NCBI GenBank assembly: GCA_903900975.1
Contig: CAIUPE010000054.1
Span: 1 to 64,000 of the forward strand
Direction: 5' to 3'
DNA: 64,000 nt
DNA from: an uncultured Hyphomicrobiales bacterium
Lineage (GTDB): Bacteria > Pseudomonadota > Alphaproteobacteria > Rhizobiales > Beijerinckiaceae
Part shown: piece after piece, positions 37,808 through 48,372 of the stretch
How positions within the stretch are numbered: the first letter of the stretch is position 1
Layout: every line of letters starts with the position of its first letter
Position numbers and translations under genes: made by a program
Notes under the pieces: model-generated
Database searches by the model: none
Seen by the model: only the letters and a program-made list of their open reading frames with translations
What the model was told of the DNA's origin: nothing

Positions 37808-38430
37808 AAAATGAGGCATCCTTCGTCGCGAAAAAATCCGATGAGCGGTTGCAACGGCAGACCGAGGACGGTGAAAAATTCACCCTCAACACGGTCGAAC
37901 AAATGCACGCCCAGACCTTCCAACTCGTAACATCCCACGCTTAGAAGCACGCGATCACCCACAAGTGAACAATAATGATCAATTTGCGCCGGGCTTAAAG
38001 TGCGCATTGTCATATCCGCCGAATCAGCATGCGAAAACAATATTTGACCATCGCGAACGACTGAAACAGCACTGATCAAGCGATGCGTCTTGCCACTTAA
38101 AAACGCCAATTGCTGCTTGGCTTCGATCAGATGTTCCGGCTTATGCAAGGCGATGGCGTCAGCCACCAACATTTGATCAGCACCGATCACGTAGCGTGTG
38201 GGGTTGGCTAGGCTAACCAGCCTGGCTTTTTCATTGGCTAGCGCCTGGGCACGGTCCGATAGAGCCAACCCTTCGCGTTGCAACGTGGCTTCAAACGCTC
38301 TTTCATCAAATTCAGGAATGATAATTACGGGCGACAGACCGGCGCGTTCCAGCATGTCCCGCCGGGCACGGCTTTTAGACGCCAATATAACGGGAACTTG
38401 GGGAGCCCAGACCGAACTAATCACACTCAT
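37804..38430 (-). CDS. Maf-like nucleotide pyrophosphatase
   Basis: House-cleaning nucleoside triphosphate pyrophosphatase of the Maf family. [18 protein letters not shown] (about 15-32) and the catalytic-Asp region [11 protein letters not shown] (about 81-91) are present, then [14 protein letters not shown] and [31 protein letters not shown]. This is the subgroup linked to the origin in alphaproteobacteria; substrate preference cannot be read from sequence. The ATG at 38430 shares ATGA with the PPSR stop. Confidence 0.92.
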
Positions 38431-39293
38431 GATAGATCACGTTGACGGGTATGTTCCCGGTGAAGATCAATCACGGCGGCGGCGGTTTCTTCAATCGAGC
38501 GGCGTGTCACATCGATCATCGGCCAATTATGACGACCGCAGAGCCGGCGGGAATAAGCAATCTCCTCAGTAACCGTAGATTTATCGATATAGGGAGAATT
38601 TTCAGGAGCATTTAACGTCAGCAGCCGGTTTTGTCGGATTTGAACGATGCGCTCCGGACTGGCAACCAATCCAACAATAAGTGGCTTTTTAATTGTTTCA
38701 AGTGTTTCCGGAGGCGCTATACCTAAGACAAGCGGAACATTGGCTGTTTTATAGCCGCGATTGGCAAGATAAATGCTCGTTGGTGTCTTCGAGGTTCGGC
38801 TGATTCCTACCAAAATAATATCTGCGGCGTGTAGATCCTGACCCTGCTGCCCGTCATCATGCATCATGGTATAATTTAACGCATCGATCCGTTTGAAATA
38901 ATCGGAGTTCAAAACATGCTGCGCGCCGGGCCGGTGGGTATAGCTTAGCCCAAGATAGGCTTGAAAAATTGTTAATACGGGATCAAGGACCGACAAACAG
39001 GGACAACCGAAATCGGCGCATGCTGTCTCAAGACGTTTCGCAAAAACCTTGTCAACCAAGGTATATAAAACAATGCCGGGCGCTTTTTCGAGTGCCGTTA
39101 GAATTCGATCGAGTTGTGCTTCGTTTCGGACAAGCGGATAAACATGCTCGATTGCCGACACACTCTCATATTGGGCCGCCGCAGCGCGGCTAACCGCTAT
39201 CAGCGTCTCGCCCGTTGAATCAGACACGAGGTGAAGATGAAAATAATTGCGCTGCAACCGGTCAAGCTCCGTCTCAAAGGGTTGTGGATGCAT
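38427..39293 (-). CDS. PEP synthase/PPDK regulatory protein (DUF299)
   Basis: Bifunctional kinase/pyrophosphorylase that switches pyruvate,phosphate dikinase or PEP synthase. [16 protein letters not shown] starts the domain (about 16-31), and the P-loop-like site is [21 protein letters not shown] (about 160-180), with [17 protein letters not shown] later. The 288-residue length is full. This is the gene first numbered RP001 in Rickettsia, on one side of the origin there and in Caulobacter relatives. The ATG at 39293 lacks a clear Shine-Dalgarno sequence. Confidence 0.9.
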
Positions 39294-39648
39294 CAGGGGT
39301 TAATGGGGATAACCTGTCTGCTTAATCCTTGCCTTGAAAAACCTATCCCCTATTGCCATCAGATGATCAACAGGGCGCTCCAGCGGGATAAAAATCGGTT
39401 CGGCTGGGCTTTGAAGTGGGGATTACAATTTGAAGCCCTAAGGGATGATCCGTGTTTCTACAGCTTAAGCTTTTGATCTTACGCTTTAAATCAGTTCTTT
39501 CGGAAGACCTTCTCTGATGACCTAAATTCATTTCGCGTTAATTGACAAGACTCGTTAAAACCGTGGACATTCTGTGGATGAAATCGAATGTGCTCTGATC
39601 ACGGGCTAACAGAAACAACAAATTAAGAATCACTTAAGGAATCTTTTA
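39294..39648. other. Candidate chromosomal replication origin (oriC)
   Basis: This 355-base gap lies between the PPSR gene and hemE, the position of the chromosomal origin in Caulobacter and Rickettsia. DnaA-type boxes (consensus TGTGGATAA on this strand) occur with one mismatch at 39304-39312 (TGGGGATAA) and 39573-39581 (TGTGGATGA), and with two at 39283-39291 and 39417-39425. The hexamer TGGGGA (reverse complement TCCCCA, recalled as the Caulobacter W-box) occurs at 39304 and 39417. The right half is AT-rich and ends with a perfect CtrA box. Genes point mostly away from it on both sides: minus on the left, plus on the right. Confidence 0.7.
39623..39637. promoter_or_regulatory. Perfect CtrA box at the oriC/hemE border
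   Basis: TTAA-GAATCAC-TTAA matches the CtrA consensus TTAA-N7-TTAA exactly. The seven-base spacer includes GAATC, a GANTC site for the CcrM methyltransferase. The box lies 12 bases before the hemE start codon and its right half overlaps the likely Shine-Dalgarno AAGGA, as expected for an origin-linked site repressing replication or hemE-proximal transcription. Confidence 0.65.
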
Positions 39649-40701
39649 TTGGTTAATTCATTGAATCCGGCAAAGCCTGTCGAAAAGCCCCTCCTAGCAA
39701 CCATTGACGGTAAACAACAAAAACGTCCTCCGATTTGGATCATGCGCCAAGCTGGCCGTTATCTTCCGGAATATAAGCAAGTGCGGGCAAAATCGAAGAA
39801 CTTTATCGATTTCTGCTATTCACCAGACCTAGCAACGGAAGCCACATTGCAACCGATCAGACGATTTGGTTTTGACGCTGCAATTCTATTTTCGGATATT
39901 TTGGTCGTTCCCGATGCTTTGGGACAATCCGTATCATTCGTTGAAAACGAGGGACCGCGGCTTCCGCCTTTGCTGATCGAAAATAATCTATCGGAGCTTA
40001 GGGGGACCATCGATCTTGATCGACTTTCACCGGTATTCGAAACGATAGCTCGGGTTAAAGAAGCCTTGCCGGTAGAAACAACCTTTTTAGGCTTTTGCGG
40101 AGCACCTTGGACGGTAGCCAGTTATATGATCGCTGGAAAAGGCACGCCAGAACAAGCTCCGATACGGTTAGTAGCCTACCGGCATCCGGAATTTCTGGAG
40201 CGACTCATTCAGCGTTTAGTCGAATCCTCGATCACCTATTTGTGTCAGCAAATTTCAGCGGGTGTCGACGCGGTGCAAATTTTCGAAAGTTTTGCCGGAG
40301 CATTAACGGCTGACGGTATCGAACAGTGGTCGATTAAACCGATACGGGAGATCATCGATGGGGTCCGTAAAATGTATCCTCAAGCAAAATTTATTGTTTT
40401 CGGGCGAGGTTCTGGCGCTAATCATATAAAATATGCACGGGACACGGGCGCGAATGTGGTCGCTATCGATTGGTCGGTTGACCCAACATGGGCAGCCCAG
40501 ACCCTGCAGCCGTTAAAGCCTGTCCAGGGCAATCTTGACCCCTTGGCAGTGGTCGCAGGTGGTGATCAGCTTGACCGGCGGGTAGACGGTATTCTGGAAG
40601 CATTTTCGAAGGGGCCACATATCTTTAATCTCGGTCACGGCATTGTGCCCGAAACACCATTGGATCACGTTGAACGGCTCGTGAAGCGGGTACGAGGTTG
40701 A
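39649..40701 (+). CDS. hemE: Uroporphyrinogen decarboxylase
   Basis: Converts uroporphyrinogen III to coproporphyrinogen III. PPIWIMRQAGRYLPEYKQVR (about 27-46, substrate-binding Arg residues) and FSDILVVPDALGQSVSF (catalytic Asp, about 84-100) are diagnostic; GFCGAPWTVASYMIAGKG and NLGHGIVPETP follow. The start is a TTG at 39649 with AAGGA seven bases upstream; no ATG gives the full N-terminus. The 350-residue length is normal. It borders the candidate origin and is followed by hemJ, another heme gene, one base after its stop. Confidence 0.95.
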   Translation: MVNSLNPAKPVEKPLLATIDGKQQKRPPIWIMRQAGRYLPEYKQVRAKSKNFIDFCYSPDLATEATLQPIRRFGFDAAILFSDILVVPDALGQSVSFVENEGPRLPPLLIENNLSELRGTIDLDRLSPVFETIARVKEALPVETTFLGFCGAPWTVASYMIAGKGTPEQAPIRLVAYRHPEFLERLIQRLVESSITYLCQQISAGVDAVQIFESFAGALTADGIEQWSIKPIREIIDGVRKMYPQAKFIVFGRGSGANHIKYARDTGANVVAIDWSVDPTWAAQTLQPLKPVQGNLDPLAVVAGGDQLDRRVDGILEAFSKGPHIFNLGHGIVPETPLDHVERLVKRVRG

Positions 40702-43964: not shown

Positions 43965-43980
43965 GGTTTCACGTGAAACA
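43965..43980. promoter_or_regulatory. parS centromere site
   Basis: GTTTCACGTGAAAC at 43966-43979 is the perfect 14-base core of the ParB-binding parS sequence, flanked by G and A. It lies between mnmE and mnmG, 4.3 kb to the right of the candidate origin and 2.6 kb to the left of parA. Location near parAB and the origin supports function. Confidence 0.9.
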
Positions 43981-45890: not shown

Positions 45891-46573
45891 TGGCTCGTTT
45901 GGGACCCGGAACGCCGGACGCGTTGGCCCATGATCGGGCGAAGGCTCTCTCGATGGTACCGGTTTCACATGAAACATCAGCTCAACTCGACGTTTATGTC
46001 GAACGGCTGATCCGTTGGCAAAGCATTAAAAATCTGGTTGGGCCAGCAACTATACCAGTGATCTGGACCCGCCATATCGCCGATTCTGCTCAATTGGCGG
46101 GCTTTCAGCCAGAGGCGACGATCTGGGCGGATATCGGATCAGGGGCGGGGTTTCCGGGGTTGGTTTTGGCGATTCTACTTGCGGGCCGGCCAGGGTTTCA
46201 TATTCACCTTGTCGAAAGCAATGGCCGTAAAGTCGCTTTTTTGCGGGATGTTGTGCGGAATCTTGGACTACCGGCAACCATCCACGACTGTCGGATTGAA
46301 GATGCTTATCGGCAGTTGCCCGAAAAAATTGATTGCTTAACCGCCCGCGCCCTTGCCCCTTTGCGCGAATTGTTGCGTTTGCAGACGTTTATAACACAAA
46401 ATCCGTGTATAGGCTTGTTTCCAAAGGGACAAGATGTTGATGTTGAATTGACCGAAGCCGCTAAATATTGGAATATTCAAGCCGACATACACCCAAGTCT
46501 TACCGATCCGACCGCACGGATTGTCGAGGTGATAAACTTCTCGCCTCGGGCTTCTAACGGAGCTTCCGCCTGA
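45890..46573 (+). CDS. rsmG: 16S rRNA (guanine(527)-N7)-methyltransferase
   Basis: SAM-dependent methylation of G527 of 16S rRNA. The SAM site is WADIGSGAGFPGLVLAILL (about 83-101) after RHIADSAQLAGF; ESNGRKVAFLRDVVRNLGL and CLTARALAPLRELLRL are diagnostic. The ATG overlaps the mnmG stop by one base. The 227-residue length is normal. A one-mismatch parS copy lies within its codons for VSHET at 45962-45975. It is followed by parA, the classic gidA-gidB-parA-parB order. Confidence 0.95.
   Translation: MARLGPGTPDALAHDRAKALSMVPVSHETSAQLDVYVERLIRWQSIKNLVGPATIPVIWTRHIADSAQLAGFQPEATIWADIGSGAGFPGLVLAILLAGRPGFHIHLVESNGRKVAFLRDVVRNLGLPATIHDCRIEDAYRQLPEKIDCLTARALAPLRELLRLQTFITQNPCIGLFPKGQDVDVELTEAAKYWNIQADIHPSLTDPTARIVEVINFSPRASNGASA
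45962..45975. promoter_or_regulatory. parS-like site inside rsmG
   Basis: GTTTCACATGAAAC differs from the perfect parS core at 43966-43979 by one central base (G to A). It lies 2 kb from the perfect copy and 0.6 kb before parA. It could be a secondary ParB nucleation site. Confidence 0.5.
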
Positions 46574-46602
46574 CGCAGGGTTTTGTGAAAAGGTTTTTAG
46601 AG

Positions 46603-47457
46603 ATGGACACCACAGAGAACACTTCCATCCGCTTGTCACGCTCGGGTCAAAAGCCGCGCGTCTTGGCGTTGGCCAACCAGAAGGGTGGCGTTGGCAAGAC
46701 GACGACGGCGATTAACCTTGGTACGGCATTGGCTGCTATTGGCGAGCGCGTGCTGATTGTCGATCTCGATCCGCAAGGCAATGCGTCTACGGGCTTTGGT
46801 ATCGATCAAAAAAGCCGGACGGTATCGACCTATGATGTAATGACGGGCACCGCCAAGCTGGCCGATGCAATCCACGCTACAGCGGTGCCAAGATTGTTTG
46901 TCTCACCATCAACGCTTGATCTCTTGGGTTTAGAGTTAGAGATCGCAAACGATCGTGATCGCGCTCAAAAATTAAAAAAAGCTATCGCCAGCCTGCATGT
47001 CACCAAGATGTTGGCGGGTGAGGAGGGCTTTACCTATGTGCTGGTTGATTGCCCCCCTTCGTTGAATTTGCTGACCATTAATGCCATGGCCGCTGCGGAT
47101 GCCGTTGTCGTGCCTCTGCAGTGCGAGTTTTTCGCGCTGGAAGGGTTGAGCCAATTGCTTAAAACGGTCGATCAGGTACGAGAATCGCTTAATCCGCATT
47201 TGTCGATTCACGGAATCGTGCTGACGATGTTTGACGCGCGCAACAATCTTTGTTCGCAGGTCGTTGAAGACGTTCGCGCCTTTATGGGAACCAAGGTCTA
47301 CGATACGGTCATTCCTCGCAATGTCCGCGTTTCCGAGGCCCCGTCGCATGGTAAGCCCGTTTTGCTCTACGATTTGAAATCGTCCGGTGCGCAGGCCTAT
47401 TTAAGGCTAGCCTCGGAAGTCATCCAGCGCGAGCGGGCGTTACAGACCGCGGCTTGA
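46603..47457 (+). CDS. parA: Chromosome partitioning ATPase ParA
   Basis: Deviant-Walker ATPase that drives ParB-parS segregation. Walker A is NQKGGVGKTTTAINLG (signature Lys K27, K32), then VLIVDLDPQGNASTGFG, the Walker B VLVDCPPSLNLLTINAMAAADAVVVPLQCEFFALEGLSQLL in segments, and IVLTMFDARNNL. ATG at 46603 gives 284 residues; a GTG at 46585 would add six. It is chromosomal-type, without an N-terminal HTH, and lies 42 bases before parB. Confidence 0.96.
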   Translation: MDTTENTSIRLSRSGQKPRVLALANQKGGVGKTTTAINLGTALAAIGERVLIVDLDPQGNASTGFGIDQKSRTVSTYDVMTGTAKLADAIHATAVPRLFVSPSTLDLLGLELEIANDRDRAQKLKKAIASLHVTKMLAGEEGFTYVLVDCPPSLNLLTINAMAAADAVVVPLQCEFFALEGLSQLLKTVDQVRESLNPHLSIHGIVLTMFDARNNLCSQVVEDVRAFMGTKVYDTVIPRNVRVSEAPSHGKPVLLYDLKSSGAQAYLRLASEVIQRERALQTAA

Positions 47458-47499
47458 TCGGCAAGTCGCCCATTCATAGTTTGACCAAGGGGAATGATC

Positions 47500-48372
47500 A
47501 TGGCTGAGGAGCCCACCCGCTCACGTTTGGGCCGCGGACTTGCGGCATTGATTGGCGAAGTTGGGGAGGCCTCGCCTCCGGCCGAACGCGCAAAGGGTCA
47601 GCGTCGGGTCCCGACTGAATTTCTGCGCCCCAATCCCCGCAATCCGCGCCGCAGCTTTAACGAGGCCGAATTAGAAGATTTGGCAAATTCCGTTCGCGAA
47701 AAGGGAATTATTCAGCCTATCTTGGTCCGAAGCCTACCGGGCATGGATGATGTCTTCGAAATTATCGCAGGTGAACGGCGTTGGCGGGCGGCCCAGCGTG
47801 CTTCCCTGCATGACGTGCCGGTTATCGTTGTTGAGGCGGGGGATAAAGAAGCCCTTGAGATTGCGATTATCGAAAATGTGCAGCGCGCTGATCTCAACGC
47901 CCTAGAAGAAGCCGTTGGCTATGAGCAATTAATCGCCGATTACGGCTATTCGCAAAATGATCTATCGCGCATCATCGGTAAAAGTCGTAGCCACATCGCC
48001 AATACGATGCGGCTCACGCGACTGCCTGAGGGTGTCAAAACGATGTTGTCGAGCGGTGAATTGTCGGCAGGACACGCCCGCGCTTTGCTATCGGTTAAAG
48101 ATCCTGATGCCATTGCGCGTCGCATTGTCGAACGCGGTATGACGGTGCGCGATGTCGAACGTATTGCCCAAGAAGATGACAAAACCGAGAAATCGTCCGA
48201 AACGCCCCGGAAACGTGAAAAAGATCCTGATACACGGGCGCTCGAAAAGGCGATAGAAGATGTTTTGGGCTTATCGGTGTCGATATCGCACGGTGCCCGC
48301 GGCGGTGAATTAAGGATCAAATACCGGACCTTAGAACAACTCGACGCTGTTTGCCGCCGTTTGCGAGATTAA
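47500..48372 (+). CDS. parB: Chromosome partitioning protein ParB
   Basis: CTP-dependent clamp that loads at parS and spreads. The N-terminal ParA-interaction peptide (TRSRLGRGLAALIGE), the ParB/Srx domain with the CTP-binding motif GERRWRA (91-97) and ENVQRADLNALEEA, the HTH (NDLSRIIGKSRSHIANTMRL) and a C-terminal dimerisation domain are all present. ATG at 47500 is preferred because AAGGGG lies eight bases upstream; ATG at 47494 is too close to it. The gene overlaps holA by four bases tail to tail. Confidence 0.96.
   Translation: MAEEPTRSRLGRGLAALIGEVGEASPPAERAKGQRRVPTEFLRPNPRNPRRSFNEAELEDLANSVREKGIIQPILVRSLPGMDDVFEIIAGERRWRAAQRASLHDVPVIVVEAGDKEALEIAIIENVQRADLNALEEAVGYEQLIADYGYSQNDLSRIIGKSRSHIANTMRLTRLPEGVKTMLSSGELSAGHARALLSVKDPDAIARRIVERGMTVRDVERIAQEDDKTEKSSETPRKREKDPDTRALEKAIEDVLGLSVSISHGARGGELRIKYRTLEQLDAVCRRLRD

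Follow-up and report, generated by a model that had tools for sequence, protein, structure and literature searches.

A putative Cori-type chromosomal origin between DUF299 and hemE in an uncultured Beijerinckiaceae-like alphaproteobacterium, and helical phasing of opposed boxes among its relatives

Origins flanked by hemE and the locus in the window

The chromosomal origin of Caulobacter crescentus (Cori) has been placed by independent methods between hemE and COG1806, the family also named DUF299, and the origin predicted for Rickettsia has the same flanks (PMC1914354). According to the same paper, some Rickettsiales origins lack CtrA boxes. Repression of Cori by CtrA and the presence of parS within 8 kb of it have been reviewed (PMC4468827), and several GANTC sites lie in the Caulobacter origin (PMC3973325). 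For Brucella, which belongs to the same order as the bacterium studied here, the available part of PMC2877005 states that binding of CtrA to its own origin was not found.

The DNA analysed, 64,000 nucleotides in length (the window), covers positions 1-64000 of the 111959-base contig C54. It comes from an uncultured Beijerinckiaceae-like alphaproteobacterium whose 2.9 Mb genome is in 153 contigs. In the window, a 355-bp gap (39294-39648) separates a DUF299/COG1806 gene from hemE, with secB, dnaQ, coaE, aroE, maf and DUF299 to its left and hemE, hemJ, rho, mnmE, mnmG, rsmG, a parA-like gene and parB to its right. Protein family matches back secB, DUF299 and every right-hand gene as far as parB, and the other four left-hand genes are presumably dnaQ, coaE, aroE and maf. 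A sequence-only reading had proposed a chromosomal origin in this gap. On the sequence comparisons reported here, we conclude that the gap is very probably the chromosomal origin of this bacterium, and that it is an ordinary further example of the known Cori-type origins. That reading had also described a flip in gene strand bias across the gap, which is true locally (30 minus and nine plus genes to the left; all eight genes from hemE to 48372 plus) and fails over the whole right side (11 plus, 10 minus), the counts coming from a hand-picked list of open reading frames of which a few overlap.

The gap resembles Cori in its hemE/COG1806 flanks, its size (404 bp in Cori), its DnaA-type boxes and CtrA box, an AT content above that of the genome (compared here with the window) and a parS-like site a few kb away. 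Unlike Cori, for which five CtrA boxes are reported (PMC1914354), it has one exact CtrA box, no match to the IHF consensus and no exact TGATCCACA box. With the predicted Rickettsia and Wolbachia origins it shares the hemE flank, DnaA and CtrA sites and raised AT, and most of the features used as in-silico criteria in PMC1914354 are found here, but its AT content is far lower and the flank in Wolbachia is hemE/COG1253. A pair of opposed boxes 60 bp apart, described below, is a feature of the window's gap. Escherichia coli oriC likewise has DnaA boxes and the word ATCAACA (there the IHF site), at a box-to-IHF spacing shorter than 60 bp; its flanking genes and regulators differ.

Nucleotide skew supports an origin near this gap. 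In our own contig (C54:1-104000, the one contig on which the skew of this genome rests), the cumulative GC-skew minimum was at 38428 and the keto-skew minimum at 39862. In G020, a single 4.24-Mb contig of the same family, sampled 20-kb stretches were negative in 7/7 cases within 1-700000, positive in 13/13 within 700001-2540000 and negative in 6/7 from 2730001 onward; hemE starts at 703815, and the skew minimum inside 640001-780000 was at 706594. In G004, of the same genus, the minimum was at 133674 of a 191-kb contig carrying hemE at 119492-120538, and in G041 (the genome of locus L077) the skew around hemE was near zero and mixed, so that this genome neither supports nor refutes an origin there. 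The minimum expected at the gap by the sequence-only reading thus lay 0.9 kb from it in the own contig, and in G020 the skew flipped at hemE; counted against an origin here are that 0.9-kb offset, the offset of about 13 kb in G004 and the absence of a clean change in G041. Origins linked to dnaA are frequent outside the alphaproteobacteria, but an origin beside dnaA, as in many bacteria, is extremely unlikely here, since dnaA lies on another contig (C81), where 15 kb of the locus contained one degenerate box, no CtrA box and no box cluster, and since the skew of G020 changes at hemE. DnaA and CtrA proteins are both encoded in the genome, each above its family cut-off. A partial DnaA-like match under the cut-off (G000:C141:69149-69505, 25.6 bits) was also seen, which we take to be possibly an Hda/HdaA homologue.

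Among 80 loci kept out of 555, the closest named HemE proteins belong to uncultured MAGs (Beijerinckiaceae, Hyphomicrobiales or Alphaproteobacteria; 69-84% identity, L002-L009), followed by Alsobacter soli (68%), more MAGs, Chelatococcus, Microvirga and others. The divergent DUF299-hemE pair was present in 70/80 of these named loci, in 67/80 order-level stretches and in 19/20 class-level stretches. The named loci without it were L006, L030, L035, L037, L039, L040, L058, L066, L067 and L069, some of them clipped by a contig end. Seven (L030, L035, L037, L039, L058, L066 and L067, from Methylocystis, Methylosinus, Methylocystaceae and one Hyphomicrobiales MAG) had no DUF299 match between maf and hemE with the remaining gene order intact, and DUF299 may have been lost from the origin flank in these.

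Conserved sites within the gap

The coordinates of the features are collected in Table 1.

Table 1. Features of the putative origin and its surroundings, in window coordinates
Feature	Position	Strand	Remarks
Putative chromosomal origin (whole gap)	39294..39648	.	hemE/COG1806 flanks, nearby skew minimum, conserved boxes
Left-flanking DUF299/COG1806 gene (PPDK/PEP synthase regulator family)	38427..39293	-	NF003742 341.7 bits, cut-off 225
DnaA-type box TTATCCCCA, left partner of phased module	39304..39312	-	8/9 columns invariant in six gaps; 60 bp from 39364
Element TGATCAACA, facing the box at 39304 as right-hand partner in the phased module; candidate weak DnaA box or IHF core	39364..39372	+	7/9 columns invariant in six gaps
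Weak DnaA-type box TAATCCCCA	39417..39425	-	6/9 columns invariant in six gaps
AT-rich 80-bp segment with the lowest stability in the gap; candidate unwinding element	39454..39533	.	0.27% of 80-bp windows in 104 kb equally or more unstable
Tandem DnaA-type boxes ATGTCCACG + TCATCCACA, 11 bp apart	39562..39581	-	18/21 columns of 39561-39581 invariant in six gaps
CtrA box TTAA-N7-TTAA with GANTC inside (39627), abutting the hemE ribosome-binding region	39623..39637	.	exact; 13/15 columns invariant
hemE, right flank, TTG start	39649..40701	+	TIGR01464 390.6 bits, cut-off 302.95
parS-like palindrome between mnmE and mnmG, 4.3 kb from gap	43965..43980	+	one mismatch to pattern used
parS-like palindrome inside rsmG, 6.3 kb from gap	45961-45976		two mismatches
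parA-like gene	46585-47457	+	ParA/MinD-type matches, all under their cut-offs
parB gene	47494-48372	+	TIGR00180 183.2 bits, cut-off 58.45

The several degenerate DnaA-type boxes and the lack of a perfect one, both stated by the sequence-only reading, were recovered: the gap holds no exact TTATCCACA box, two boxes at one mismatch from it (39304-39312 and 39573-39581) and two further boxes at two mismatches, together with the two TGGGGA hexamers that had been described (39304 and 39417). The two one-mismatch boxes are the sole such pair less than 300 bp apart in 104 kb of the own contig, which has 14 such boxes in total. Over the 64-kb window, one-mismatch boxes showed no excess (8 found vs 7.57 expected), and therefore only local clustering and conservation were used.

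An alignment of six gaps from the closest group (WIN, L002, L003, L085, L086 and L087; L084 and L088 were left out as near-identical to L002 and L003) had pairwise identities of 51-79% and 126/361 invariant columns. The columns of the one-mismatch DnaA boxes were invariant in 17/18 cases vs 109/337 elsewhere (Fisher 1.3e-7), and those of the CtrA box in 13/15 vs 113/340 elsewhere (4.7e-5), although the adjoining ribosome-binding region may account for part of the conservation of the right half of the latter. The longest invariant runs were CTTAAGGAATCT at 39633, AATTAAGAAT at 39621, CTGTGGATGA at 39572, CGTGGACA at 39562, ATTGACAA at 39541, GGGGATAA at 39305 and ATCAACA at 39366. The 11-bp spacing of the tandem boxes is the most frequent minus-minus box spacing among relatives (33/89 gaps), in a search for which the first tandem box at 39562 is itself too degenerate. 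A ladder of GGGAT motifs, also proposed earlier, holds up as a local concentration (GGGAT/ATCCC five times in 145 bp, the densest in the window) and is conserved only in part: at 39384 and 39440, 1/9 and 0/9 columns are invariant in relatives, so that part of the ladder is probably due to chance. Within the first DUF299 codons lies a degenerate DnaA-type word on the minus strand (GCATCCACA, 39283-39291) whose TGTG is invariant in seven aligned sequences, but this is coding sequence.

Site densities in 89 non-redundant gaps (of 96; seven were removed for shared 12-mers) were compared with those in 89 ORF-free stretches from elsewhere in these loci. DnaA-box, W-box, CtrA-box and GANTC words were all denser in the gaps, with TNNTCCACA at 1.74 vs 0.10 per kb, TCCCCA (the W-box core) at 1.89 vs 0.48, TTAAN7TTAA at 2.08 vs 0.05 and GANTC at 12.15 vs 3.01, counts that are not independent because the set is heavy in Microvirga. 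CtrA-type words with altered spacers served as controls (gaps vs other stretches, per kb: N6, 0.36 vs 0.00; N8, 0.03 vs 0.00). The 7-mers found de novo in the gaps of 77 relatives were headed by GTCCACA, GTGGATA, CGTTAAC and ATCCACA.

The gap is 57.7% AT vs 45.0% in the window, a value reached by 0.7% of 355-bp windows, and its right half, described earlier as AT-rich, has 63.5%, reached by 0.3% of 178-bp windows. The terminal CtrA box is likewise present, as the one exact copy in the gap and one of 2 in the window (shuffle mean 0.44; 7/100 shuffles reach 2). In the group closest to the window (L002, L003, L004), a CtrA box lies near the start of hemE. In Microvirga and other loci it stands about 140-200 bp before the point where the HemE alignment begins, often in two copies, and its position seems to have shifted within the family. 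GANTC (CcrM) sites occur at 39549, 39627, 39639 and 39663, four in about 120 bp, in a window depleted of this word (128 found vs 299 expected). The three within the gap are in the shuffle range (26/100 shuffles reach 3). Among relatives there are up to 13 per gap, with the highest numbers in Microvirga plus a few others, and 7.1 per kb in 57 order-level gaps vs 2.2 in the flanking DUF299 part. The window contains 3 parS-like matches at up to three mismatches vs 1.74 expected by chance. Counted against an origin, besides the skew offsets, are the single exact CtrA box, the absence of an IHF consensus match, the few and degenerate DnaA boxes, the GANTC number within the shuffle range and the Brucella result on CtrA.

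These sites could also be read as those of a mere divergent DUF299/hemE promoter region on which CtrA and DnaA act as transcription regulators, the origin lying elsewhere within tens of kilobases. The ATTGACAA word at 39541, a CTAACA block at 39606 and the CtrA/ribosome-binding block look promoter-like, DnaA regulates transcription in Caulobacter too (PMC3193534), and skew resolves an origin only to kilobases. We nevertheless consider this very unlikely, because the skew minima of the own contig and of G020 lie at or near the boundary between hemE and DUF299, because the flanks match those of the Caulobacter origin, and because opposed box pairs occur at 2.28 per kb in the gaps vs 0.011 in the remainder of the same loci, a difference of about 200-fold (the remainder yielded 10 pairs in 0.9 Mb, with an R of 0.44 on those 10 pairs only).

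Helically phased boxes among the Hyphomicrobiales

Such a pair consists of a DnaA-type box in minus orientation, which reads TG[TG]GGA on the plus strand, and, further along, the element [AG]TC[AC][AC]CA in plus orientation; in the window the two stand at 39304 and 39364, 60 bp apart. In 53 similarity clusters of the first set, the spacings included 60 (8 clusters), 61 (8), 69 (4), 70 (6), 71 (3), 80 (3) and 81 bp (2), and no cluster had a spacing of 62-68, 73-77 or 83-87 bp. Phase windows of 59-61, 69-72 and 79-82 within 55-95 bp were fixed before more genomes were fetched. For the order-level set, 80 genomes were hand-picked down the ranking from 126 with a hemE match, the other 46 being already used, fragmentary, of a genus already taken or lower-ranked; 79 belong to families other than that of the window's bacterium, the exception being G056 of the own family, and one stretch (L255) had just 100 bases. 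A divergent DUF299 gene was present in 67 of the 80, and 57 of these 67 counted as independent, both mutually and with respect to the first set. The phase windows held in this set, with 19/25 spacings in phase vs about 0.27 by chance (binomial 4e-7). Since dinucleotide shuffling destroys the boxes and is thus an unfair control, it was replaced by pairing boxes across gaps. On average this put 4.2 of 13.2 spacings in phase for the order-level set (the observed count was matched in 0/2000 rounds and the fraction in 2/2000) and 5.0 of 15.9 for the first (discovery) set, where 37/41 observed spacings were in phase (0/2000).

Over both sets the best period was 10.45 bp (88 spacings, R 0.67; 0/1000 jittered sets match). 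Some phasing, weaker than this, also appeared in the other pairings of the pooled sets: R was 0.49 for plus-to-minus (0/1000 pooled, but 64/1000 when the order set was taken by itself), 0.36 for minus-to-minus (12/1000) and, at the limit of the range, 0.42 for plus-to-plus (11/1000); because only the minus-to-plus pairing is strong in both sets, the phasing claim rests on it. The 60/70/80 ladder comes partly from tandem left boxes with a 10-bp pitch in the same gap, and a count of the nearest box per cluster was therefore made, which gave R at 10.5 bp of 0.77 (30/53 clusters) and 0.81 (22/57). In-phase pairs were found in 27/53 first-set representatives, 16/57 order-level gaps and 1/19 gaps from other orders, indicating that the module is common, far from universal and largely confined to the Hyphomicrobiales. 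When information content was profiled from the left box onward, no sharp peak appeared at +60, probably because spacings vary between lineages. The strict 60-bp form with ATCAACA occurred in 27/149 family genomes, with many matches in other, coding-looking sequence, and in the own genome it matched in the gap only.

These spacings suggest that the left box and the opposed element are held on one face of the DNA helix across relatives. On balance we favour the view that origins of Hyphomicrobiales often carry a helically phased module, in which at least one DnaA-type box, with a 10-bp pitch, stands against an opposed [AG]TC[AC][AC]CA at about 60 + n x 10.5 bp, giving a fixed-face bend or loop (DnaA-DnaA, or DnaA with IHF) that would assemble the initiation complex, and that this module is nearly absent from the 19 gaps of other alphaproteobacterial orders.

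What the opposed element is bears on how the phasing would arise. Of 89 gaps, 51 contained ATCAACA; it pointed towards hemE 48 times, and in 48/51 it fell between 18% and 47% of the way along the gap. Without preselection, 38 of 120 clusters contained ATCAACA and 27 ATCCACA, any other ATCAANN word occurred in at most 6, and no other ATCNACA word was found in the 120 clusters. In addition, 19 of 58 phased partners read TCC[AC]CA, a DnaA-type word, in a search whose expression admitted such words only. Together, the counts of ATCAACA and ATCCACA and the DnaA-type words standing in its place favour a weak DnaA box. The other candidate is an IHF core, the phasing then being that of an IHF bend and not of DnaA-DnaA contact, which is compatible with the gap as an origin. 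The IHF site of E. coli oriC, printed as GATCAACAACCTG (PMC4285127), is nearly the same as the ATCAACA element and makes an IHF core nearly as likely as a weak DnaA box, and IHF is reported to be active at the Caulobacter origin. Against an IHF core stand the word counts and DnaA-type partners above and the TTR end of the IHF site, which is not conserved; neither WATCAN5WTR nor WATCARN4TTR matches in the gap, although the ATCAACA word resembles the oriC site. We hold the IHF core to be a serious possibility that falls somewhat short of even chances. A fixed helical face could be required by a weak DnaA box or an IHF core alike.

For selected boxes of E. coli oriC, spacing changes of one helical turn are tolerated and those of part of a turn are not (Woelker and Messer 1993, via PMC4285127). 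By analogy, the phasing pattern is what selection for an E. coli-like spacing rule would leave, and, if the module is read as above, it would be the counterpart of the left-half geometry of oriC. The term helical phasing occurs in PMC5043065; no report of phased boxes in these origins was found in the literature searched (mostly titles and the starts of abstracts), and the available parts of PMC8725594 and PMC11514494 contain nothing on these boxes. The phased pair of opposed elements may be a new feature.

A model for initiation and its implications

Position, skew, conserved sites and phasing across relatives are established here, and from them we infer protein binding, unwinding and regulation at the gap. 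In the proposed model, DnaA would bind on the left at the 39304 and 39417 boxes and on the right at the tandem pair (39562-39581), then oligomerise, and the oligomer would open the AT-rich stretch at about 39454-39533, where the helicase would be loaded. The left box and the opposed ATCAACA 60 bp away would share a fixed helical face, so that a bend or loop of the DNA could join the bound proteins. Except in the replicating stage, CtrA bound to 39623-39637 would keep hemE from being transcribed and the origin from firing, and new origins would be segregated by ParB acting at the parS-like palindrome 4.3 kb away.

Under the model, separating the two elements by an extra half turn of the helix would harm the origin, and an extra full turn would not. 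The finding gives an uncultured genus a very probable origin, and box geometry can now be read by comparing about 150 origin sequences from a single order. The 10.45-bp phasing would be a sign, from sequence alone, of the three-dimensional assembly of an initiation complex outside E. coli.
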